From: Kordia sp. TARA_039_SRF
Lineage (GTDB): Bacteria; Bacteroidota; Bacteroidia; Flavobacteriales; Flavobacteriaceae
Reading direction: 5' to 3'
Assembly: GCA_006383075.2 (NCBI GenBank)
Contig: SMNH02000005.1
Coordinates: 124,001-188,000 of the forward strand
Length of the DNA stretch: 64,000 nt
Under the pieces are notes generated by a model. The model ran no database searches and was not told the origin of the DNA. It saw nothing but the letters and a program-made list of their open reading frames with translations. The position numbers were made by a program, and so were the translations under genes. Positions 2,188 to 63,822 of this stretch are shown here, piece by piece (positions within the stretch are counted from its first letter, which is position 1; every line of letters starts with the position of its first letter).

Positions 2188-2443
2188 GTCTTTTTTGTAG
2201 GATGATGATTTTGAAGTCCGATTTAAAGGTTAAAAAAATAATTTTTTTCTTATTCAAAAATATTCTTATAAGGTGTTTATTTCGTGCGGGTTACCATAAT
2301 GATCTCAAAATACGTTATTTTTCAACCTTTATAAAATACGAAAAAAATCTTAAATAAAACAAGTGTTTTTACTTACAATATTTATTGCTTTTGTTTCATT
2401 ATGAGTCAGTTAAAACCGTAATTTTAGTTTACCATTGCAATGC

Positions 2444-2475
2444 TGGCGAATCCGAAAAGCCATTAATAGAGTAGG
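2444..2475 (+). promoter_or_regulatory. Leader element copy 1 (hairpin + AGAGTAGG), before the lanthipeptide precursor
   Basis: The element is a TGGC/GCCA hairpin whose loop ends in CCGAAAA, then six bases, then AGAGTAGG. It ends 23 bases before the ATG at 2499. Outer TTACC (2429-2433) and GGTAA (2474-2478) could add a closing stem. The same element occurs before three other genes in this window (26929-26957, 30309-30339, 62799-62834). The variable spacer between hairpin and AGAGTAGG suggests it works as RNA in the 5' leader. I could not match it to a named RNA family. Confidence 0.65.
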
Positions 2476-2498
2476 TAACCTTATTAAATACTTGAATT

Positions 2499-2693
2499 AT
2501 GAAAAAAAATGAAATCATTAAAGCATGGAAAGATGCAAAAAGCAAAGAAGAATTATCAAACATGATTGGAGCTCCAGAAGTTAACAAAGAAGTTGTTAGA
2601 GGTGGAGCTGAAGATTCTGATTCTGCAGGATGGATTTGTACTGTTAGTGGAGAGTGCTGGGGCTTCTCTTGTAACCCATTTAGCAGAAAATAA
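2499..2693 (+). CDS. Class II lanthipeptide precursor (mersacidin / lacticin 481-like)
   Basis: The 64-residue peptide has a charged leader (EIIKAWKDAKSKEEL resembles mersacidin/lichenicidin-family leaders) ending in Gly35-Gly36, the usual cleavage site of double-glycine peptidases. The 28-residue core holds Cys47, Cys53 and Cys58 plus Ser40, Ser42, Thr48, Ser50, Ser57 and Ser62. Thr48 to Cys53 reads TVSGEC, matching the TxS/TxD/EC ring of lacticin 481, nukacin and mersacidin that contacts lipid II, with the same 5-residue Thr-to-Cys spacing. The LanM gene follows after 73 bases. Antimicrobial function is inferred, not shown. No second precursor is seen. Confidence 0.85.
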   Translation: MKKNEIIKAWKDAKSKEELSNMIGAPEVNKEVVRGGAEDSDSAGWICTVSGECWGFSCNPFSRK

Positions 2694-2716
2694 GATTCAT
2701 TCTTACGTTAAATAAA

Positions 2717-2748
2717 ATAAACGACTTCTTGTACAAGAAGTCGTTTAT
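2717..2748 (+). terminator. Perfect palindrome between precursor and LanM (attenuator or processing hairpin)
   Basis: A 32-base perfect palindrome centred on TTGTACAA forms a hairpin with arms of about 14-16 bp. It lies 24 bases after the precursor stop and 18 bases before the LanM start. It lacks a long T tract, so it more likely limits read-through or protects the precursor mRNA than fully terminates. Such hairpins are common where a lantibiotic precursor must exceed its synthetase. Confidence 0.65.
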
Positions 2749-2766
2749 ATATACACCTACACCACC

Positions 2767-5640
2767 ATGCCAATCACCATTGAAAAAAAAGACGCCATTT
2801 TTATAGATTTTTCTTCCGATAATATTCAAACTGGCTTACTAAATCTGTGTTTGCCACTTGTAAATGCTACTGTTGAAGAACTGAAAAAAAGATCGAACAC
2901 GCGATTCACAAATCGTTTTGTGAATTCACATGAAGTTGTCATCTATAATTTATTGGGAAGTCTACTGACATTATCACACAAAACACTGATTTCGAGTTAC
3001 AAGTTTCTAAAAAAGAAGGGACTATTTCCAGAAGCAACTGAAGTTGAGCGCTTAAAATCGTTTAGTGATCACTTAAAAGAGCCCGAAATTCGTTCGTTTA
3101 TATTAGAGCAATATCCATTACTGGAAAAATGGCTTATCAACGAAGCAAGTGTTTGGTTAAAACAAACCTGTGAATTGGCGGAACGACTTGAAAAAGATTA
3201 TAAAATCATTCAAGAAAAGTTTTTCAATAATCAAGAGTTGGGAGAAATTGATTACATCACCTATGGCATGGGCGACAGGCATCGCGGCGGACAATCGGTA
3301 GCGATGATTACATTTCAATCGGGTAAAAAACTCCTTTACAAACCTCGTAACTTAACTATTGACATACATTTTGGTAACTTTTTAAATGAAATAGACAAAG
3401 ATGTACAACTAGGATTTATCACGCCAAAACTTATTCAATTTGAAACCTATGGTTGGGTTGAATTTATAGCATATACCTCATGCACGAAAGTTTCTGAACT
3501 TAACGCTTATTACGAACGAATGGGAGCGTATTTGGCGGTTCTCTACACGCTAGAAGCCACAGATTTTCACTATGAAAATATCATTGCACATGGCGCGCAT
3601 CCTGTGTTAATTGATCTAGAATCGTTTTTTCATCCGTACTTTCCAACAGAAGGAACAGAAACTAATGAAGCTACCAACCAATCGGTATTGCGAACAGGAC
3701 TCTTACCGAGTAAATCGGCACCCGTAGAAGGCGCTACAGATATTAGTGGACTTACTGATGTAGCGCAAAAAGAAGGACTGTTGCCCAATATGATCTTAAA
3801 AATGGAAGGTGACACTATAGAATACGTGCGTGACAAAGGCGTTTTACTAGGCGGAAATAACATTCCAATGCTCAATGGTGAAAAAGTGTCTATCGCGAAA
3901 GAACACATGCCATATTTTAAATCAGGTTTTAAAAAAACATACAATTACGTCCTAAAAAATAAAGAAAAAGTAAAAAAAGAACTGTTCAATTTTGCCGACG
4001 ATGAGGTGCGTGTTTTGTTTAGAAATACAGTGGCGTATGTACATTTATTAGAAGAAAGTACACATCCAAAAATCATGGGAAGTGTTGAAAATGCGCAAGA
4101 GCATTTTAACATATTGGCTGAAAAAATTAGAGTCAACAAAATAGCAAAACACTTTGTGCCGCATGAAGCTGCTAGTTTAATGAAACGCGAAGTTCCGCTT
4201 TTTACCACCAAAGTAAATTCACGTCATTTATGGGTTGAAGAAGATGTGTATTTAGAAAATTTCTTTGACAGTACAGGGATTGAAACGGTATCAAACCGTA
4301 TTGATTTGATGTTTGAAGCAGATTTGAAACGACAACTTTGGATTATTGATGCTTCTTTCGAAATCAATGTTTCTGAAGAACATATCATACCAAAAGACAA
4401 ACGAATTCATCCGAGAGAAGCAAAAGCAGCACCAACGCAAAAAGAACTGCTGAACGAAAGTTTGAAAGTAGCAAACTATATTGAAAACACAATCCATCTA
4501 ACAGAAGACTCATGTAGTTGGTTGGTGTTTAAACCTGTAAATTTAGAAGGAACTACATACAGAATAGCCGAATCGTTCTATGATTTATTTAGCGGAATGC
4601 CTGGAGAAATTCTCTACTTTGCCTATTTACATGAAATTACAGGCGACGAAAAATTCAAGAAAATTGCTGTCAATGCTGTTACATATCTACAAGAAAAACT
4701 ACAAAATTCGAAAGAGGCTATCAACGTGCTAGGTTTTTACACAGGTTGGGGAAGTATTATTGACTTATACACAAAACTTGCAATACTGTGGAAAGATGAT
4801 TCGTATTTTGAAAAAATAGAAAAACTATACGAAGAAATAGACTTTGAAGCCTATTTAGAAAAAGACCAAGATTTTTCTCTAGTAAAAGGAGCGGCGGGAT
4901 TTATGGTGGCAAACATCAACTATTACAATAAAACCACTTTTGCAAAAGCCTTGGAATTGGCTAAAAAATCAGCTGCATATTTGTTGAATAAAGCTAAAAA
5001 AACAGACGATTATATAGCTTGGAAAATCATAAGTAAAGTACCAATCAGTGGACTTTCGCATGGTGCTTCGGGATTTGCACTTGCATTTGCAAAACTATAC
5101 AAAGCAACAAAAGATGCTTCTTATCTAACAATCGTTGAAAAAATCCTCAATTACGAAAAAACACTATTTATAGAAGCACAACAAAACTGGCAGGATTGTC
5201 GCGACATCATCACACAAACTTTTCCCAATCAAATCATGTGTGCAACTACTTGGTCACACGGAGCCGCTGGCATCGGTTTGGCGCGATTGGAAATGTTGAA
5301 ACTCGGAATAGAACTTCCAGAACTTAAGAACGATTTGGAAATCGCATTGCAAACAACGCTGAAAAACGGTTTTGGTGGAAAACACTCGCTCAGTGCTGGA
5401 GATTTTGGCAATCTTGAATTGCTGCTGCAATATGCTGATTACTATAATGATGAAAACGTACGGCGTCAACTGCAAAATATCTTGCGCTCACTTATGGACG
5501 ACATTTCTGAAAATGGTTGGAAAATTGGAACAAAACGAATTCAATCGTTAGGTTTAATGACAGGCGTAACGGGAATTGGATACCAATTTTTACGAATGGC
5601 ATATCCAAACAAAGTACCTTCACTATTAGTTACTTCTTAA
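2767..5640 (+). CDS. lanM: Class II lanthipeptide synthetase (LanM) with degenerate cyclase zinc site
   Basis: The 957-residue protein has the two-domain LanM layout. The N-terminal DUF4135 dehydratase (about residues 60-580) keeps its kinase-like signatures: GDRHRGGQSV near 169, LLYKPR (ATP lysine), DFHYEN at 266-271 and LIDLES. It should phosphorylate and eliminate Ser/Thr of the precursor. The C-terminal LanC-like domain begins around residue 600 (DLFSGMPGEILYFAYL) and keeps GLSHG (His765). The usual WCHG motif reads TWSHG (Ser830), and the usual LCHG motif reads LSAG (Ser876, Ala877). The three expected zinc ligands (Cys, Cys, His) are therefore absent although the fold motifs around them remain. 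Thioether formation may be spontaneous or done elsewhere. It lies between the precursor and a DoxX-like gene. Confidence 0.9.
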   Translation: MPITIEKKDAIFIDFSSDNIQTGLLNLCLPLVNATVEELKKRSNTRFTNRFVNSHEVVIYNLLGSLLTLSHKTLISSYKFLKKKGLFPEATEVERLKSFSDHLKEPEIRSFILEQYPLLEKWLINEASVWLKQTCELAERLEKDYKIIQEKFFNNQELGEIDYITYGMGDRHRGGQSVAMITFQSGKKLLYKPRNLTIDIHFGNFLNEIDKDVQLGFITPKLIQFETYGWVEFIAYTSCTKVSELNAYYERMGAYLAVLYTLEATDFHYENIIAHGAHPVLIDLESFFHPYFPTEGTETNEATNQSVLRTGLLPSKSAPVEGATDISGLTDVAQKEGLLPNMILKMEGDTIEYVRDKGVLLGGNNIPMLNGEKVSIAKEHMPYFKSGFKKTYNYVLKNKEKVKKELFNFADDEVRVLFRNTVAYVHLLEESTHPKIMGSVENAQEHFNILAEKIRVNKIAKHFVPHEAASLMKREVPLFTTKVNSRHLWVEEDVYLENFFDSTGIETVSNRIDLMFEADLKRQLWIIDASFEINVSEEHIIPKDKRIHPREAKAAPTQKELLNESLKVANYIENTIHLTEDSCSWLVFKPVNLEGTTYRIAESFYDLFSGMPGEILYFAYLHEITGDEKFKKIAVNAVTYLQEKLQNSKEAINVLGFYTGWGSIIDLYTKLAILWKDDSYFEKIEKLYEEIDFEAYLEKDQDFSLVKGAAGFMVANINYYNKTTFAKALELAKKSAAYLLNKAKKTDDYIAWKIISKVPISGLSHGASGFALAFAKLYKATKDASYLTIVEKILNYEKTLFIEAQQNWQDCRDIITQTFPNQIMCATTWSHGAAGIGLARLEMLKLGIELPELKNDLEIALQTTLKNGFGGKHSLSAGDFGNLELLLQYADYYNDENVRRQLQNILRSLMDDISENGWKIGTKRIQSLGLMTGVTGIGYQFLRMAYPNKVPSLLVTS

Positions 5641-5652
5641 AAAAAATACAAC

Positions 5653-6288
5653 ATGCTAAAAAAGTGGAAACAAAAAATATGGTTACAAATCTTTGTCATC
5701 TATACACGCTATTTAATTGGCGGAACTTTTGTATTTGCTAGTTTAATAAAAATAAAAGGAACACGTTTTACTTCCGAAAGCGGAGCTGATAATCCAATTA
5801 ACAGTTCGTGGCACCTTTTTGAAACCTTATACGAATCTGGATTATATTGGCGATTTATTGGAGTTGCACAACTTACAGCAGGATTTCTGTTGATGACACA
5901 GCGATATGCAAAACTGGGAGCGATAGTAAACCTGCCAATTATCTTGAATATTTTTATCATCACGCTTTCGTACTATTTTGCCTTTACACCAGTCATAACA
6001 GGAGCAATGTTGTTTGCAAATTTTGCATTATTAGCTTGGGATTGGAATGAATTAAAAGTGTTATTCAATCAAAAACCAACATGCTCTGAAAAGGTCCGTT
6101 TAGAAAATGATAAAATCTGGGAGCTTACAGGATTGATATTATTTTTATTTACGTTTGGCTACCGTGCTTTTGTAAATAAATATGATATTTTTTTCTGGTT
6201 CGGAGGAAGTGTCTTAATTGGATTGATTGGGCTCATCATCGGATTGAAGCGACGCAAAAAGTCACAACCAACGCTACACATTAAATAA
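5653..6288 (+). CDS. DoxX/MauE-like integral membrane protein
   Basis: The 211-residue protein has about five to six hydrophobic segments and a basic C-terminus. Its start (YTRYLIGGTFVFASLIKIKG) fits the DoxX-like membrane superfamily. It begins 12 bases after LanM, so it is almost certainly in the same transcript. In that position it could protect the producer, act in redox chemistry on cysteines, or help export. None of these is shown by a motif. It lacks the peptidase/ABC domains of LanT, so the locus has no visible exporter. Its 3' end overlaps the convergent hydrolase gene by 8 bases. Confidence 0.7.
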   Translation: MLKKWKQKIWLQIFVIYTRYLIGGTFVFASLIKIKGTRFTSESGADNPINSSWHLFETLYESGLYWRFIGVAQLTAGFLLMTQRYAKLGAIVNLPIILNIFIITLSYYFAFTPVITGAMLFANFALLAWDWNELKVLFNQKPTCSEKVRLENDKIWELTGLILFLFTFGYRAFVNKYDIFFWFGGSVLIGLIGLIIGLKRRKKSQPTLHIK

Positions 6289-8461: not shown

Positions 8462-10555
8462 ATGAAGCAGCTCATCACCAAATTATATAAAAATCAATCG
8501 TTTCTGTATAAACTACTATTGCACATTTTAACCACGGTTTTAGTAGTATATCTTTTCCCGAAAGGAGGAAAATTTCAATACGAGTTTCAAAAAGGAAAAC
8601 CTTGGCAATACGAAACGTTGATTGCTCCTTTTGATTTTCCAATTATCAAATCGCCCGAAGAAATAGAAGCTGAAAAATCGCGATTGACTACGAATGCAAA
8701 AACCTATTATGAATATGATAGTGAGATAGTTGAAAAAGTACAAAACGATTTTGAAACGCAGTTCAATCAACTATTTTCATTAGATAGTTTGATAGATGCA
8801 AGCGGCTTTAAAGACTTAAAACAAAAGACGAGTCAGTTGTTGGATAATTTTTACCGAAATGGTGTTATTGCAACGGTTGACGAATCACAGTTGGATAAGC
8901 TGGTAGTGCTGATGGAAGATAATGTTGAGCGTGGAATTGTCAGTTACGATAGTTTTATAAAAATCAACAATCTTCAAGAATACATTAAAAAATTCGTGGA
9001 CAGAGCGGGATTGCAAAATTATGAAACGCTGTTATACAATCTGTTTTTTGAAATTATTGAATCGAATGTTAAGCTCGATCAGGAATATACCAATTCGGTA
9101 TTAGCAGCCGAACTTGACAAAATAGCGCCCACACGCGGAAACGTTCAAAAAGGCATTCGAATCATTGCCAAAGGAGAAGTTGTAGAAGGGCAGAAGTTGG
9201 AGCAATTAAACTCCCTTAAAAAAGAATACGAATCACAAGTTTGGAACGAATCCAATTACAATTGGATTGTTTTCGGCTACATCATTTTAGTCGCGCTGGC
9301 GTTGATGATGTTGTTGTTATTCATTCGAAAATATCGTCCAGAAATTTACGAAAACAATAACAAAGTCACGTTTATCTTCATGAATATCGTGTTTATGATT
9401 GTTCTTACGACGCTTATTGTTAAGTACAACACCAAATACGTTTATGTAGTTCCATTGTGTATTTTACCGTTAATTCTCAAAGCATTTTTTGATGCGCGAT
9501 TGGGTTTATTTGCGCACGTACTTACCGTATTATTACTAGGATTTATTGTGCCGAACAGTTCGGAATACATCTTTTTACAAATCATTGCGGGAATCGTGAC
9601 CATTTTAACAGTTTCTGAATTATACAAACGGGCAAATCTCTTTATTTCTGTCGGACAGATTACGCTAATTTACATTGTAGCTTATTTTGCGTTTTACATA
9701 ACACATGAAGGCGGTATCAAGTTTTCGGAAGTCTTTAGTATGAATGAATCGGGCGATTTGCATGTTATTTGGATATATTTTATGCAATTTATTTTGTGTG
9801 GCTTGGCGACGTTATTCGTGCAACCGCTCATTTATATTTATGAAAAGATATTTGGACTCGTGTCAGATGTGTCTTTGCTAGAACTTTCCGATACCAATTC
9901 CAAACTCTTGAAACGACTCGCTAACGAAGCACCTGGAACTTTTCATCATTCGCTTCAAGTGGCAAATCTTGCGGAAGCGGCAGCAAGTGAAATTGGCGCA
10001 AATACCATGTTGGTTAGAGTAGGAGCGTTGTATCATGATATTGGGAAAATGAATAATCCGACATTTTTTATTGAAAATCAGGCAACTTCGGTAAATCCGC
10101 ACGACGAATTAGCGCCAGATGAAAGTGCCAAAACCATTATTGATCATGTATTGGACGGCATCGAAATCGCGAAAAGCAACAAATTACCAGACAGAGTTAT
10201 CGATTTCATCCGAACACATCATGGAACGTCTACCGTATACTATTTTTACCAAAAAGCTAAAGAATTGGACGAAGACGTAGCGATTGAAAAATTTCAATAT
10301 CCAGGACCGATTCCTTTCTCAAAAGAAACCGCTATTTTAATGATGGCAGATTCGGTAGAAGCGGCTTCTAAAAGTATTAAAGAGCCAACGTCTCAAACAA
10401 TTGACAAGTTTGTAGAACGCATCATCGACAAGCAAATGGACGAGCAGCAATTTATGAATGCGGACATTACTTTAAAAGAGATTGTCACTATCAAAAAAGT
10501 CCTTAAAAAGAAGCTAAACAACATCTATCACTTACGAATTGAATATCCAGAATAA
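8462..10555 (+). CDS. 7TM-HD family phosphohydrolase, PgpH-like cyclic-di-AMP phosphodiesterase
   Basis: The 697-residue protein follows the 7TMR-HDED plan. It has an N-terminal membrane anchor (residues 15-35), an extracytoplasmic domain to about residue 260, a block of seven hydrophobic helices (about 265-470) and a cytoplasmic HD domain. The HD metal site is clear: HHSLQVANLAEAAA, then ALYHDIGKMNNP, then RTHHGTSTVYYF. Listeria PgpH, the characterised family member, hydrolyses cyclic-di-AMP, so a role in second-messenger turnover is expected. The gene stands alone, divergent from the thiolase. Confidence 0.9.
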   Translation: MKQLITKLYKNQSFLYKLLLHILTTVLVVYLFPKGGKFQYEFQKGKPWQYETLIAPFDFPIIKSPEEIEAEKSRLTTNAKTYYEYDSEIVEKVQNDFETQFNQLFSLDSLIDASGFKDLKQKTSQLLDNFYRNGVIATVDESQLDKLVVLMEDNVERGIVSYDSFIKINNLQEYIKKFVDRAGLQNYETLLYNLFFEIIESNVKLDQEYTNSVLAAELDKIAPTRGNVQKGIRIIAKGEVVEGQKLEQLNSLKKEYESQVWNESNYNWIVFGYIILVALALMMLLLFIRKYRPEIYENNNKVTFIFMNIVFMIVLTTLIVKYNTKYVYVVPLCILPLILKAFFDARLGLFAHVLTVLLLGFIVPNSSEYIFLQIIAGIVTILTVSELYKRANLFISVGQITLIYIVAYFAFYITHEGGIKFSEVFSMNESGDLHVIWIYFMQFILCGLATLFVQPLIYIYEKIFGLVSDVSLLELSDTNSKLLKRLANEAPGTFHHSLQVANLAEAAASEIGANTMLVRVGALYHDIGKMNNPTFFIENQATSVNPHDELAPDESAKTIIDHVLDGIEIAKSNKLPDRVIDFIRTHHGTSTVYYFYQKAKELDEDVAIEKFQYPGPIPFSKETAILMMADSVEAASKSIKEPTSQTIDKFVERIIDKQMDEQQFMNADITLKEIVTIKKVLKKKLNNIYHLRIEYPE

Positions 10556-10705: not shown

Positions 10706-10787
10706 GGAGAGGTGGCAGAGTGGTAATGCAGCAGCCTGCTAAGCTGTCAACCTTCGGGTTGCCCGGGTTCGAATCCCGGTCTCTCCG
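10706..10787 (+). tRNA. tRNA-Ser (GCU anticodon)
   Basis: The 7-bp acceptor stem pairs GGAGAGG with TCTCTCC (one G-U), the T arm carries GGTTCGAATCC and the anticodon loop is CTGCTAA, giving GCU. A small extra arm (AACC ttc GGTT) marks the long variable region of serine tRNAs. CCA is not encoded. Confidence 0.93.
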
Positions 10788-10905
10788 CTTTTTTTATTGA
10801 AAAAATCAAAGTGTAATTTCTTGAATAATTTTAAGAAATTCATTTTTCGTGGTGTAGCCTCTCGACAAAGCTCGAGATAAACTACACTATGAATTTATCA
10901 CTTTT

Positions 10906-10980
10906 CGGGGTGTAGCGTAGCCCGGTTATCGCGCCGCGTTTGGGACGCGGAGGTCGCAGGTTCGAATCCTGCCACCCCGA
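10906..10980 (+). tRNA. tRNA-Pro (UGG anticodon)
   Basis: Acceptor CGGGGTG pairs with CACCCCG. The anticodon loop TTTGGGA gives UGG, and the T arm holds GGTTCGAATCC. CCA is not encoded. It lies 118 bases after tRNA-Ser. Confidence 0.93.
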
Positions 10981-11044
10981 CACAGAAAAGTGCTAGTTTA
11001 TCAGTTAAAGCGATAAACTATACAGACAAATTGCTATATGCAAG

Positions 11045-11118
11045 GGTCGCGTAGCTCAGCTGGATAGAGCATCTGCCTTCTAAGCAGACGGTCACAGGTT
11101 CGAATCCTGTCGCGATCA
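11045..11118 (+). tRNA. tRNA-Arg (UCU anticodon), integration target of the adjacent island
   Basis: Acceptor GGTCGCG pairs with CGCGATC, the D arm has AGCTCAGCTGGATAGAGC, the anticodon loop CTTCTAA gives UCU and the T arm holds GGTTCGAATCC. Its last bases, AATCCTGTCGCGAT at 11103-11116, occur again at 14916-14929. A recombinase remnant abuts its 3' end. Confidence 0.94.
11103..11116 (+). repeat. Putative attachment core in tRNA-Arg 3' end (att repeat, left)
   Basis: AATCCTGTCGCGAT is identical to 14916-14929 in direct orientation. It is GC-richer than its surroundings, and a 14-base match is very unlikely by chance over 4 kb. Direct repeats of a tRNA 3' end are the usual scar of site-specific integration. 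Confidence 0.6.
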
Positions 11119-26572: not shown

Positions 26573-26905
26573 TTATTGAGTAGAAGCAGCATAAGTTAAC
26601 TGAGGAGTTACGCCACTGGCATCACAAGGACTTTGATTTTGAATACGTACAATGTTAGGGTTATCTTGTGCTTTGACTATCACAGATGTTGAATTCCCTG
26701 AGGTAAGAGTACCAGAAGCAACGACTTTTCCAACAGAGTCATTATAAATAGCGTATTCTACATTTTGCTTACTTGGATTGGTTAGAGCAATAAATAATGC
26801 TTGTCTTGCGTCAGTAGCTATCGCTGGAGCTGCACTACTACAGTCAATTGTTCCTTGTACTACTGAACGACTTGAGATTGGTAAATAACCTTCTTTTAAT
26901 TCCAT
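26573..26905 (-). CDS. Unknown 110-residue protein under leader element 2
   Basis: The protein has no signal peptide, no membrane helix and no family I recognise. It has two Cys (one in GTIDCSSAAPA, one in QSPCDAS), alternating beta-type segments (FIALTNPSKQNVEYAIYNDS) and a Ser/Thr-rich body, as in small Ig-like or pilin-like proteins. The leader element 23 bases before its start matches that of the lanthipeptide precursor. No modifying enzyme is adjacent. It could be an exported protein or an unusual peptide substrate. Neither is shown. Confidence 0.65.
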   Translation of the reverse strand: MELKEGYLPISSRSVVQGTIDCSSAAPAIATDARQALFIALTNPSKQNVEYAIYNDSVGKVVASGTLTSGNSTSVIVKAQDNPNIVRIQNQSPCDASGVTPQLTYAASTQ

Positions 26906-26928
26906 AATTTTAAATTTATTTGGTAATT

Positions 26929-26957
26929 CCTACTCTAAAGGCTTTTCGGATTCCGCC
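26929..26957 (-). promoter_or_regulatory. Leader element copy 2, before the 110-residue protein
   Basis: On the minus strand it reads GGCGGAATCCGAAAAGCC, TTT, then AGAGTAGG, ending 23 bases before the ATG at 26905. This is the same gap as copy 1 (before the lanthipeptide precursor), with a shorter spacer (3 instead of 6 bases). Confidence 0.65.
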
Positions 26958-27116
26958 ATGATTGATTGAATAAATTTGCTAGCGTTTTATTTCTGATGTG
27001 AAAGTAGCTAGGAAATCAACGTGCGAGTAGATAAAAGGAATGAGTCGTGTGTTTTGAGTCACGAGATGGGAAATAGGAAGTATAAAGTCTGAAAACTATA
27101 GATTGTTTGCCAACAA

Positions 27117-29695: not shown

Positions 29696-30280
29696 TTATC
29701 CGCCACTCGCATTTTTTACAGTAGTTACCGTTCCCCTTGCTGTTCTTGGATTGGTATGAAAAAAGAATATCTCAACAGTATTAATGTATTCTAATTTTGG
29801 CATGTTATCTTTTTCAATAAATTTTATTTGAAAGTCAGAACAGAACAAAACTTTTTCTTGATTTGGTTCCTCTAATAGAGGTGATTGTAGGATAATAGAT
29901 TTATCAACTTTTATAAATATATTTATCTTAGGAAGTCCTTCAGAATTTAAAGAGTAATCATAGTATATCTTTTCTATAAAATATTCTGGGCTATTCTCTA
30001 TTTTAATTATTTTACAAAATGTTCTTACATCGATTTTGATCGTGTTATTAGATTCAGATAAGTATTCCGCAATTGCTTCAGAAAAAAATATACCATGTTT
30101 TTTATCAAATAGTTCACAATCTGTTTCTTGAAGAGTAATTGACTGGCTTTGGCAAAATTTATAATAAATATTTTCATTAGAGTTCGTAGTTATTTCCGTT
30201 TTCTTTGAAACAATTGTTCTCATTGTTTCCATTACTTCTGGTTTTACATCATGACTTGATATTGAATTTTGCGTATTCAT
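29696..30280 (-). CDS. Tail-paralog protein A of unknown function (ends RGTVTTVKNASGG)
   Basis: The 194-residue protein has no signal peptide or membrane helix. Its C-terminus INTVEIFFFHTNP...RGTVTTVKNASGG and a central YDYSLNSEGLPKINIFI match the neighbouring upstream paralog, while the rest differs. A near-identical tail on otherwise divergent paralogs suggests a site of recognition, modification or export. Leader element copy 3 precedes it by 28 bases. An Asp/Asn beta-hydroxylase gene lies upstream on the same strand. The family is not recognised. Confidence 0.6.
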   Translation of the reverse strand: MNTQNSISSHDVKPEVMETMRTIVSKKTEITTNSNENIYYKFCQSQSITLQETDCELFDKKHGIFFSEAIAEYLSESNNTIKIDVRTFCKIIKIENSPEYFIEKIYYDYSLNSEGLPKINIFIKVDKSIILQSPLLEEPNQEKVLFCSDFQIKFIEKDNMPKLEYINTVEIFFFHTNPRTARGTVTTVKNASGG

Positions 30281-30308
30281 AAATTAAATAGTTTTTTAAT
30301 TAGTTGTT

Positions 30309-30339
30309 CCTACTCTGTTGAGGCTTTTCAGATGACGCC
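30309..30339 (-). promoter_or_regulatory. Leader element copy 3, between the two tail paralogs
   Basis: On the minus strand it reads GGCGTCATCTGAAAAGCC, TCAAC, AGAGTAGG, ending 28 bases before the ATG at 30280. It starts 17 bases after the upstream paralog's stop, so it lies between two co-directional genes. Confidence 0.6.
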
Positions 30340-30356
30340 GTTAATTGACTTTGATG

Positions 30357-30965
30357 TTATTCGCCACTGGCATTTTTAACAGTAGTTACAGTACCGCGAG
30401 AAGTTTCTGGATCTTCATCAATAAGAAAAACTTCTACAGTTTCAATACTACTTAAATCAACAGCTTGCATTTGATTGCTGCCTGTATTAAAATTAATAGC
30501 ATTGTACCAAAACTCATGTTTTTCAATGTTTCGGTGACAGTTAAATGAAACATAAAGATTCAATTGAGGCTTTCCATCAACATTCAATGAAAAATTGTAA
30601 AATAATTTTAAATCTTCATTCTGAATAGGACCGCCAGTTCTGGCAATGGCAACGATGTAAACGCCTCTAAAACGATTGCCTACATAGTAAGGGACAACTA
30701 AAGGCGGCAACATTTGATCACTTATTCTTGAAGATTTATCCAAATCGTTTAAAGGTGATTGATTGGCAGCTTCAACAATATAATATGGCTCACCACAACA
30801 TGTTGTGCTACGTTTGTAAATTTCAGTAAAGGTGTTTAAAAGGCTTTCGAATGTTTTCGTCTTTTTTGGCTCTTCCTTTTCATCACATTGGTTTTCAATG
30901 AGTTCTTCAATAAGTCCTTCCACCTTTTGTAAAATTTCTAATTTGTTAATTCTTTGGTTACTCAT
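30357..30965 (-). CDS. Tail-paralog protein B of unknown function (ends RGTVTTVKNASGE)
   Basis: The 202-residue protein has no signal peptide or membrane helix. A charged N-terminal part (KVEGLIEELIENQ...KEEPKKTKTF) is followed by a beta-rich body with YNFSLNVDGKPQLNLYV and the tail IETVEVFLIDEDPETSRGTVTTVKNASGE (read in parts). It pairs with protein A encoded 76 bases downstream. Two Cys (STTCCGEP) lie mid-protein. A perfect inverted repeat lies 30 bases before the start. The function is unknown. Confidence 0.6.
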   Translation of the reverse strand: MSNQRINKLEILQKVEGLIEELIENQCDEKEEPKKTKTFESLLNTFTEIYKRSTTCCGEPYYIVEAANQSPLNDLDKSSRISDQMLPPLVVPYYVGNRFRGVYIVAIARTGGPIQNEDLKLFYNFSLNVDGKPQLNLYVSFNCHRNIEKHEFWYNAINFNTGSNQMQAVDLSSIETVEVFLIDEDPETSRGTVTTVKNASGE

Positions 30966-62712: not shown

Positions 62713-62746
62713 AAGCTGATTTTTATGTGAAAAATCAGCTTTTTTC
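62713..62746 (+). terminator. Terminator after the CHAT gene
   Basis: AAGCTGATTTTT (62713-62724) and AAAAATCAGCTT (62730-62741) pair perfectly and run into T's. Confidence 0.85.
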
Positions 62747-62798: not shown

Positions 62799-62834
62799 AT
62801 AAGGGGAAACTCGAAAACCTTTTAAAAGAGTAGA
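62799..62834 (+). promoter_or_regulatory. Leader element copy 4, before the Hep_Hag-like gene
   Basis: TAAGG and CCTTT enclose a loop ending CTCGAAAA, followed by spacer and AGAGTAGA. It ends 22 bases before the ATG at 62857. The stem uses AAGG/CCTT rather than GGC/GCC while the loop end GAAAA is kept, a pairing-preserving change that supports an RNA hairpin. The last base differs (AGAGTAGA). Confidence 0.5.
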
Positions 62835-62856
62835 GATAACGACAAACCATTACATT

Positions 62857-63822
62857 ATGAAAAATAAAATATCTTTTTTAATTCTATTACTAGGGTTACT
62901 ATCTGTAACAATTAATTATGCGCAACCAAATTATGGAACAAATGATCCATTAGATGGAACTTCTTCAGCATTAGGAGATGGTAATATCGTAACTTCTGAT
63001 TACTCAACAGCCTTAGGGCTTCAAAATGAAATCACAGGCTTTAATTCGTTTGCTTTTGGAAGATTCAATAAATCAATTGGAAGCTTTTCGTTTGCTTTAG
63101 GTGACTACAATGAATCGAACCAACCTTTTTCCTATACGTTTGGTAAACGCATGATAAATAATACGCCGAATTCATTTTTAGTCGGATTCGTAAAACCTGC
63201 TTTTATTGCTACCGCAAACAATTCTGGTGTAGGAACTAGAGTTGGAATTGCTACTGATGATCCACAAGCACGCTTAGATGTCCGTTTGGGAGACAAACAA
63301 GAAATCCGAATTCAATCGGAAATGGACAATACCTATGGCGGACTTTCGTTCAGAGATCATTTAGGCGGTGAAACGTGGAGAATCAGAGCGTTTAACAATT
63401 TTACGGGCGGATACAATAGTATTTTAAGTATTGTGAGCTCTCAGAAGCATGACTTATGGATTTCAGCAGGAAAAACCATGATTGGCGATTGGTTCGACTT
63501 TGATCCGTGTTCAGATTGTGACGATTATGAATTATTTGTCAAAAAAGGAATTCGTACACAAAAAATAAAAGTAGACTTAGCTGCGGGCGTTTGGGCAGAT
63601 TATGTTTTTGAAAAAGATTATGATTTAAAACCACTAGAAGAAGTAGAAGCATTCATCAATGCTAACGGACACTTACCCAATGTGCCAACAGCTTCTGAAA
63701 TTGAAAAAGAGGGCTTGAATTTGGGTGAGATGGACGCTAAATTATTAGAAAAAATTGAAGAACTTACCCTGTATGTAATTGAATTGAAGAAAGAAATTAA
63801 TGAATTAAAAAGCAAGAACTAA
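62857..63822 (+). CDS. Secreted Hep_Hag-like head-repeat protein
   Basis: The 321-residue protein has a signal peptide (MKNKISFLILLLGLLSVTIN, cleaved near YAQ). A YadA-head-like repeat region follows (SSALGDGNIVTSDYSTALGL, NSFAFGRFN, SFSFALGDYN), then a central domain and a C-terminal coiled-coil (EKIEELTLYVIELKKEINEL) with GHLPNVPTASEIEKEGLNLG just before it. That GHLP-type C-terminal module is common in flavobacterial tail-fibre-like secreted proteins. It stands behind both the ECF-type promoter and leader copy 4. Confidence 0.75.
   Translation: MKNKISFLILLLGLLSVTINYAQPNYGTNDPLDGTSSALGDGNIVTSDYSTALGLQNEITGFNSFAFGRFNKSIGSFSFALGDYNESNQPFSYTFGKRMINNTPNSFLVGFVKPAFIATANNSGVGTRVGIATDDPQARLDVRLGDKQEIRIQSEMDNTYGGLSFRDHLGGETWRIRAFNNFTGGYNSILSIVSSQKHDLWISAGKTMIGDWFDFDPCSDCDDYELFVKKGIRTQKIKVDLAAGVWADYVFEKDYDLKPLEEVEAFINANGHLPNVPTASEIEKEGLNLGEMDAKLLEKIEELTLYVIELKKEINELKSKN

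Follow-up and report, generated by a model that had tools for sequence, protein, structure and literature searches.

Riboswitches of the preQ1-I type are RNAs of about 35 nt that form an H-type pseudoknot ahead of a start codon. Another described system, the Rfam family RF02914 (DUF805b; class cis-reg, clan CL00115), is reportedly covered by a 2017 study of 224 candidate RNAs, and our literature search on DUF805b RNA found no paper on the function of the family. A loop E module beside a pseudoknot has been reported for the glutamine riboswitch (PMC12510878), and Flavo-1 has been described as a short RNA motif that is widespread in Flavobacteriaceae (PMC9723704). The Bacteroidota are reported to do without Shine-Dalgarno (SD) sequences, and how translation rates are set in these bacteria is, according to the same report, only partly known (PMC6847099).

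The window analyzed here, a 64-kb stretch of DNA from Kordia sp. TARA_039_SRF, contains four copies of a short element for which a previous sequence-only reading had found no named RNA of this form. A cmscan search of the window assigned copies 1 to 3 to RF02914 (gathering score 35.6 bits; E 7e-9 to 4e-7), with copy 4 falling 1 bit under the gathering score (E 1.5e-8 for 201 bases; Table 1). Thus, contrary to that reading, the copies match an already named RNA family, with which they share the sequence, the hairpin and the position upstream of genes, and they are members of a catalogued family without an explained function. The 4-bp hairpin is followed, in the layout of RF02914, by the segment AGAGUAGG, with AGAGUAGA instead in copy 4, and all four copies are located shortly upstream of a gene on the same strand, a cis-regulatory layout. 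The four copies and their distances of 23, 23, 28 and 22 bases to the ATG are as originally reported, and so is the position of copy 3 between two same-strand genes (it begins 17 nt past the stop of the preceding one). The stem of copy 4 is compensated, as claimed, and its pseudoknot is compensated too (CUC with GAG), which had gone unnoticed. The hairpin itself stands as far as the stem is concerned, but the loop is partly paired with the end of AGAGTAGG and so is not simply single-stranded. The 8-mer AGAGTAGG occurs five times in the window, against 0.56 occurrences expected, a count reached in 0 of 100 dinucleotide shuffles; three of these occurrences belong to copies 1-3, the other two (10016 and 20150) are matched by neither cmscan nor our own scanner, and copy 4 reads AGAGTAGA at this place. 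Elsewhere in the window, a gene at 8462-10555 (plus strand), with three tRNA genes beside it (10706-11118), encodes a 697-aa 7TM receptor with an intracellular HD domain, a kind of protein known as a c-di-AMP phosphodiesterase.

Table 1. DUF805b leader copies and associated features in the 64-kb window
Feature	Position	Strand	Remarks
DUF805b leader copy 1	2443..2477	+	RF02914, 40.3 bits; placed by our own scanner
Copy 1, stem	2445-2447 with 2459-2461		GGC with GCC
Copy 1, loop strand	2451-2453		UCC
Copy 1, GAAAA strand	2454-2458
Copy 1, AGAGUA strand	2468-2473
Copy 1, GGU strand	2474-2476		Outer pseudoknot pair U.U, unpaired
64-aa peptide, putative lanthipeptide precursor by its neighbour LanM	2499..2693	+	Starts 23 nt after copy 1
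LanM	2767-5640		TIGR03897, E 2.4e-231
110-aa protein without family hit	26573..26905	-	23 nt after copy 2
DUF805b leader copy 2	26927..26959	-	RF02914, 43.0 bits; UCC pairs with GGA
194-aa protein without family hit	29696..30280	-	Downstream of copy 3
DUF805b leader copy 3	30307..30341	-	RF02914, 37.8 bits; UCU with GGA; intercistronic
Terminator-like hairpin upstream of copy 4	62713-62741
DUF805b leader copy 4	62801..62836	+	34.6 bits (below the cut-off of 35.6), divergent; pseudoknot CUC with GAG
321-aa protein	62857..63822	+	22 nt after copy 4; signal-peptide-like start by eye

The other known systems resemble the element in part. The preQ1-I type riboswitches are similar in size, in the H-type pseudoknot and in the place before the start codon; unlike them, DUF805b shows no sequestered ribosome site, has other conserved letters and has no queuosine genes among the targets seen. 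The glutamine riboswitch is alike in the loop E module beside a pseudoknot (the module being a prediction in DUF805b) but has a three-stem junction that is absent in DUF805b; no glutamine-related targets were noticed, and its model gave no match in the window at the gathering score, nor around copy 4 at E<=1. Flavo-1, which the sequence-only reading had named for comparison, is like DUF805b a short and widespread Flavobacteriaceae motif; it has no match in the window at its gathering score.

Further copies, on which the sequence-only reading had made its proposal depend, do exist. In the genome from which the window comes, we identified at least 32 matches to RF02914 at E<=0.001, at least 23 of them over the cut-off, in a count that scores the best 150 of 3142 first-look candidates, so that more copies are possible. 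The 11 genomes of the genus Kordia, this one included, contain at least 11 to 50 matches each. Within the family, at least 91 of the 149 genomes carry a match (at least 69 over the cut-off), and 58 have none among the candidates scored; in a sample of the phylum, a match is present in at least 118 of 395 genomes (at least 76 over the cut-off), both surveys scoring part of the first-look candidates. No RF02914 match was found in 14 control genomes. A pattern scan extends the range at least to Bacteroides, Prevotellaceae, Chryseobacterium, Aquimarina, Pedobacter, Hymenobacter and Chitinophaga.

The RF02914 model as printed contains only the 4-bp hairpin, to which the present analysis adds a pseudoknot, a loop E reading, the spacing per cistron and a case for translation; the pseudoknot may already be drawn in the Rfam seed or in the original family report. 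Judging from covariation, the DUF805b RNA almost certainly folds into an H-type pseudoknot, with 3-4 pairs in stem 1 (GGC/GCC type) and another helix in which N-C-Y of the loop pairs with R-G-N' after AGAGUA. In an alignment of 105 distinct Rfam-model hits, made without structure (10 of 115 loci were dropped, 4 with incomplete flanks and 6 duplicates), 97.1% of the 315 cells of this helix are standard pairs, compared to 78.9% in shuffles; 0 of 500 shuffles reach as high, and slid versions of the pairing attain at most 49.2%. The N-N' pair is GC in 41 rows, UA in 40, AU in 11, CG in 3 and GU in 1, and is unpaired in 9. A mutual-information scan over all column pairs placed 4-21, 11-46, 6-19 and 13-44 at the top, in this order, with N-N' ranking second, between two variable stem pairs. 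One of five measures, that of further pair types, was not above shuffles for the three pseudoknot pairs alone (273 of 500). Because a covariance model scores unpaired columns independently, and the printed model is without these pairs, selection of the hits by the model cannot create the pseudoknot signal. Across the phylum, a set of 250 instances collected with a regex that requires the stem and the conserved letters and leaves N-N' free gave UA 90, GC 65, AU 37, CG 28 and others 30 (9 of these GU or UG); owing to this requirement, copy 4 and a few other copies of the same genome fall outside the set (27 included vs at least 32 model matches). N-N' is kept in 29 of the 30 copies of this genome that were checked, once as G-U, and the sole copy without the outer pseudoknot pair is copy 1. 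The spacer bridged by the covarying pairs varies from 2 to 16 nt. An extra pair outside N-N' found no support (61 of 262 instances).

A candidate link is to loop E of 5S rRNA, which contains the segment AGAGUAGG as well; no 5S rRNA was found in the assembly of this organism. In the 105-row alignment, the four A of GAAAA and GAGUA are invariant, and the G is at 90% or more. The composition of the GAAAA and AGAGUA strands, which adjoin the second helix, makes it likely that they form a bulged-G (S-turn, loop E) module. Such a module is reported to consist of a sheared G-A, a G-U platform with a Hoogsteen A-U, and an A-A (PMC7583486), and G-A-A against A-G-U-A fits its strands. By eye, the fit extends to 104 of the 105 aligned rows, with A for G in the remaining one (L114), and to 261 of 262 scanner instances, although the scanner selects for these letters.

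The genes that follow the element are diverse. In the window, the region 2499-6288 is a LanM-type lanthipeptide cluster that encompasses the 64-aa precursor, which has no Pfam or NCBIfam family hit, LanM and a 211-aa protein without family hit. The 194-aa protein is paralogous, in its C-terminal part, to the 202-aa protein encoded by the preceding gene, and a tail, TVEVF...GTVTTVKNASG, is common to two neighbouring family-less proteins (window 29696-30965, minus strand); in another Kordia (L044), the gene before the element seems, by eye, to end in a like tail, and this common C-terminal tail may be a sorting or cleavage tail. The 321-aa protein shows a YadA-head repeat match below the family cut-off. 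Among the matches listed for all downstream proteins (236 of 239, proteins with similar first 40 residues having been merged), we detected DUF2589 (7), reprolysin-type peptidases (3), caspase (3), rhodopsin (3), HU (2), DUF1842 (2), the peptide-precursor families TIGR04149 (4), CCPGW (3), class I lanthipeptide (3) and pinensin (1), and single cases of DUF805, eCIS core, Pvc16_N, tail collar, PixA, oleate hydratase and others. The regulon of secreted or specialised peptides that the sequence-only reading had proposed is therefore only partly borne out: peptides of the short leader type are common (64 of the 209 full-length downstream proteins, under a crude rule with no background control), but rhodopsins, HU, oleate hydratase, a DUF805 protein and phage genes are among the targets too, and signal-peptide-like N-termini are not enriched in Kordia (9 of 27 element genes vs 52 of 154 other ORFs), so that a secreted regulon was rejected. 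Two further candidate groupings were discarded: all rhodopsins (0 of 30 Flavobacteriaceae rhodopsin loci reach a score of 18.5, the best being 17.65, and shuffled windows in the same scan give 0 to 2 hits of at least 17), and all highly expressed genes (the ribosomal-protein stretch, C3:152001-171000, has no DUF805b match among the matches listed). Three rhodopsin genes outside those loci do carry the element, as does, by eye, a rhodopsin gene fragment; these loci are L099, L118, L132 and L207 (the fragment), with L132 and L207 from Crocinitomicaceae MAGs and one from a Bacteroidetes MAG.

The distance from the element end to the ATG has a median of 22 nt (quartiles 20-24, 5th-95th percentile 17-35; 247 of 250 instances), and an ATG ORF starts within 60 nt of 239 of the 250 elements. 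For 21 of these, copy 3 included, the stop of a same-strand ORF (90 aa or longer) is no more than 30 nt away, and such intercistronic-type elements keep the ATG distance (medians 22 and 21.5 compared). The linker is nearly free of G (3.6% in 236 linkers from all taxa vs 10.9% for Kordia ORFs), and a terminator-like hairpin was found in 0 of 237 linkers, and the linkers of the four copies in the window have none either. Both the bare linker and the intercistronic copies that keep their distance argue for translation of the next cistron over attenuation or 5' protection, and on balance the element probably acts at the translation of the adjacent cistron.

Element genes in Kordia look built for high translation. 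Their codon adaptation (27 genes) is 0.668, vs 0.588 in 154 other ORFs (p 1e-7), on a reference of 31 ORFs from a 19-kb stretch around the L14 gene whose own value is 0.731; here and below, background genes are mechanical ORF calls and p-values ignore relatedness. The difference persists when the element genes are restricted to the 17 that encode 110 aa or more (p 7e-5), when 38 short ORFs serve as the background (p 9e-6) and when the first 25 codons are left out (p 2e-6). In Flavobacterium johnsoniae, A at -3, -6, -12 and -13 has been tied to high ribosome density (PMC6847099). In a comparison of element genes taken together from several Kordia species with ORFs of the genome studied here, A is found at -3 in 50 of 58 vs 69 of 147 (p 1e-7) and at -13 in 44 of 58 vs 77 of 147 (p 0.0026), and is also raised at -12 (p 0.022) and -11 (p 0.017), with no rise at -6 (27 of 58 vs 68 of 147). 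The ORFs of the ribosomal stretch have A at -3 in 18 of 31, and the mean number of key A, out of 5, is 2.9 there, 3.6 in element genes and 2.6 in the background; with no such rise in ribosomal ORFs, these A do not simply indicate high expression. Folding of the start region is weaker in element genes (-1.5 vs -2.6 kcal/mol, p 1.5e-4), for which low GC of this region (0.195 vs 0.273) may account. All these marks are silent on the sign of the effect and would be equally expected if the element enhanced, repressed or timed translation.

The case for the translation level, together with the expression marks, favors an enhancer or ribosome-loading aid over an operator or a riboswitch. Our best reading, to which we assign a probability of roughly 40%, is that DUF805b acts on translation initiation of its own cistron, as an enhancer more probably than as a riboswitch; that its net effect is enhancement is a tentative suggestion, falling somewhat short of even odds. 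Under the mechanism that we infer, each copy would be present as a DUF805b RNA, either in the 5' portion of an mRNA or in an intercistronic stretch; ending some 22 nt ahead of the ATG, the knot would lie immediately outside the place where ribosomes land without an SD (A at -13 to -11 and -3). There, the knot would most likely help the initiating 30S subunit to load, either directly or through a bound factor, and the target mRNAs would be those meant for high output.

A translational operator, in which the pseudoknot would bind a dedicated trans-acting regulator (a protein or an sRNA) that switches peptide, surface and effector genes together, is the strongest of the alternatives, unlikely as it appears. 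The invariant strands imply a conserved partner, the copies precede many unrelated genes, with three same-strand pairs less than 1 kb apart in this genome (C1, C4 and C8, among the matches listed), and many targets encode leader peptides, lipoproteins, caspase-like, eCIS-related or DUF2589 proteins; moreover, the uneven copy number in Kordia and the family genomes without a match fit a regulon as much as an enhancer. However, the targets are functionally mixed, no regulator turned up in an unsystematic search, and the single copies in Rheinheimera and Lysobacter described below, along with the sporadic presence of the element, fit poorly unless the regulator travels along.

A riboswitch, that is, a small-molecule aptamer of preQ1-I size that shields or exposes the start region, would be in keeping with a compact H-type pseudoknot with an invariant core, and second-messenger riboswitches are known in many copies per genome. 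The glutamine riboswitch has been reported to contain loop E in a pseudoknot-interrupted junction (PMC12510878), which also speaks for this alternative. We nevertheless consider it improbable, because no expression platform is seen in the short, G-poor linker without terminator-like hairpins, the targets have no common pathway, and cmscan finds no other riboswitch family at the copies.

The DNA upstream of the element shows no conserved fixed position beyond a weak preference for A. The TAnnTTTG sequence, reported as the flavobacterial sigma-A box (PMC9723704), occurs 28 times in the 100 nt upstream, vs 15.3 in simple shuffles (highest 22), scattered with no single distance to the element. In 14 of 250 loci, most of them belonging to a single gene family, a TGGCAC/T box stands at -29 to -32 (among them the 13 loci L019, L060, L069, L071, L076-L078, L080-L083, L085 and L086, with TTGA following in 9 of the 13); these boxes appear to be sigma-54-like promoters, mostly of small secreted proteins with 'ERGVEFLIFPDGSFDFNT' or like, and a sigma-54 scan with the TTGC box showed no excess. 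In Kordia, the palindrome GTTGCAAC is located 17-19 nt upstream of the element, and GTAGCTAC about 26-35 nt upstream in other loci (together, and mostly from Kordia, L007, L030, L034, L038, L039, L046 and L226); either is a possible regulator site. At the four window copies, sigma-70-type scans gave no hit on the element strand and no more hits than shuffles in three regions, with 2 vs 1.2 in the fourth. A promoter common to all elements was rejected, the boxes being scattered or limited to one gene family and no upstream position being conserved. The boxes fit transcription starts upstream of the element, and with possible promoter sequence ending shortly before it, the 5' end of the RNA may lie between a few and some tens of nt ahead of the element. 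This proximity (the TAnnTTTG excess, the TGGCAC/T boxes and GTTGCAAC near -18 in Kordia) is what could be expected if the knot were a stabiliser at the transcript start that blocks 5'-dependent decay, an explanation that is quite improbable given that neither intercistronic copies nor a fixed ATG distance are needed for 5' protection and that the TAnnTTTG boxes are not at one distance. Finally, a promoter element or transcription-factor site in the DNA, although compatible with a conserved 8-mer, AGAGTAGG, at a regular distance from genes, is contradicted by compensatory changes that bridge the variable spacer, in pairs that exist only in the folded strand, and is effectively excluded; the earlier preference for RNA over a rigid promoter thus holds.

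Copies of the element were also found beyond the Bacteroidota. Rheinheimera maricola and a Lysobacter MAG carry one copy each, before a DUF2589 gene; the distances to the ATG are 21 and 22 nt, and the linker contains GGGAG or AAGGAG, which resembles an SD. Given its short contig (6.8 kb), the Lysobacter copy may be a case of misbinning. Among 369 gammaproteobacterial genomes, one (Rheinheimera itself) is over the cut-off and two more reach E<=0.001 below it, and among 27 DUF2589 loci of the order of Rheinheimera, the element is present only at that of Rheinheimera. A gammaproteobacterial family of the element was accordingly rejected, and the copies have the appearance of transfers in which the element was retained together with its spacing. 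The element is also present on nine viral contigs, some of them near-identical: in one (L242), it precedes a ParB-like gene followed by the terminase, and in another (L237), a gene about 600 nt before the terminase and portal; two proteins of a third locus (L238) have no PHROG hit. In addition, a 41-base query matches two unannotated gut phage records, which are candidates (83-89% over 85-88%). In Bacteroides fragilis, an abiF RNA (RF03085; L142:2012-2048, minus strand) has two DUF805b copies in its neighbourhood, one at a distance of about 1.5 kb and the other at 5 kb. A broader proposal, which we regard as decidedly doubtful, is that DUF805b is a mobile, structured ribosome-recruiting element of SD-less bacteria, a pseudoknot whose ribosome-like loop E would dock onto the initiating 30S subunit at its edge, raising the translation of any following cistron, and which would have been borrowed by phages and carried between phyla.

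The correction of the structure gives the DUF805b family a model that is open to compensatory mutation. A small RNA knot that is found as many as 50 times in one genome, set at a fixed distance from start codons, and also within operons and on phage contigs, is a directly testable handle. If it is true that DUF805b enhances or gates translation, the element would be a ready expression-control part for gut and marine Bacteroidota.
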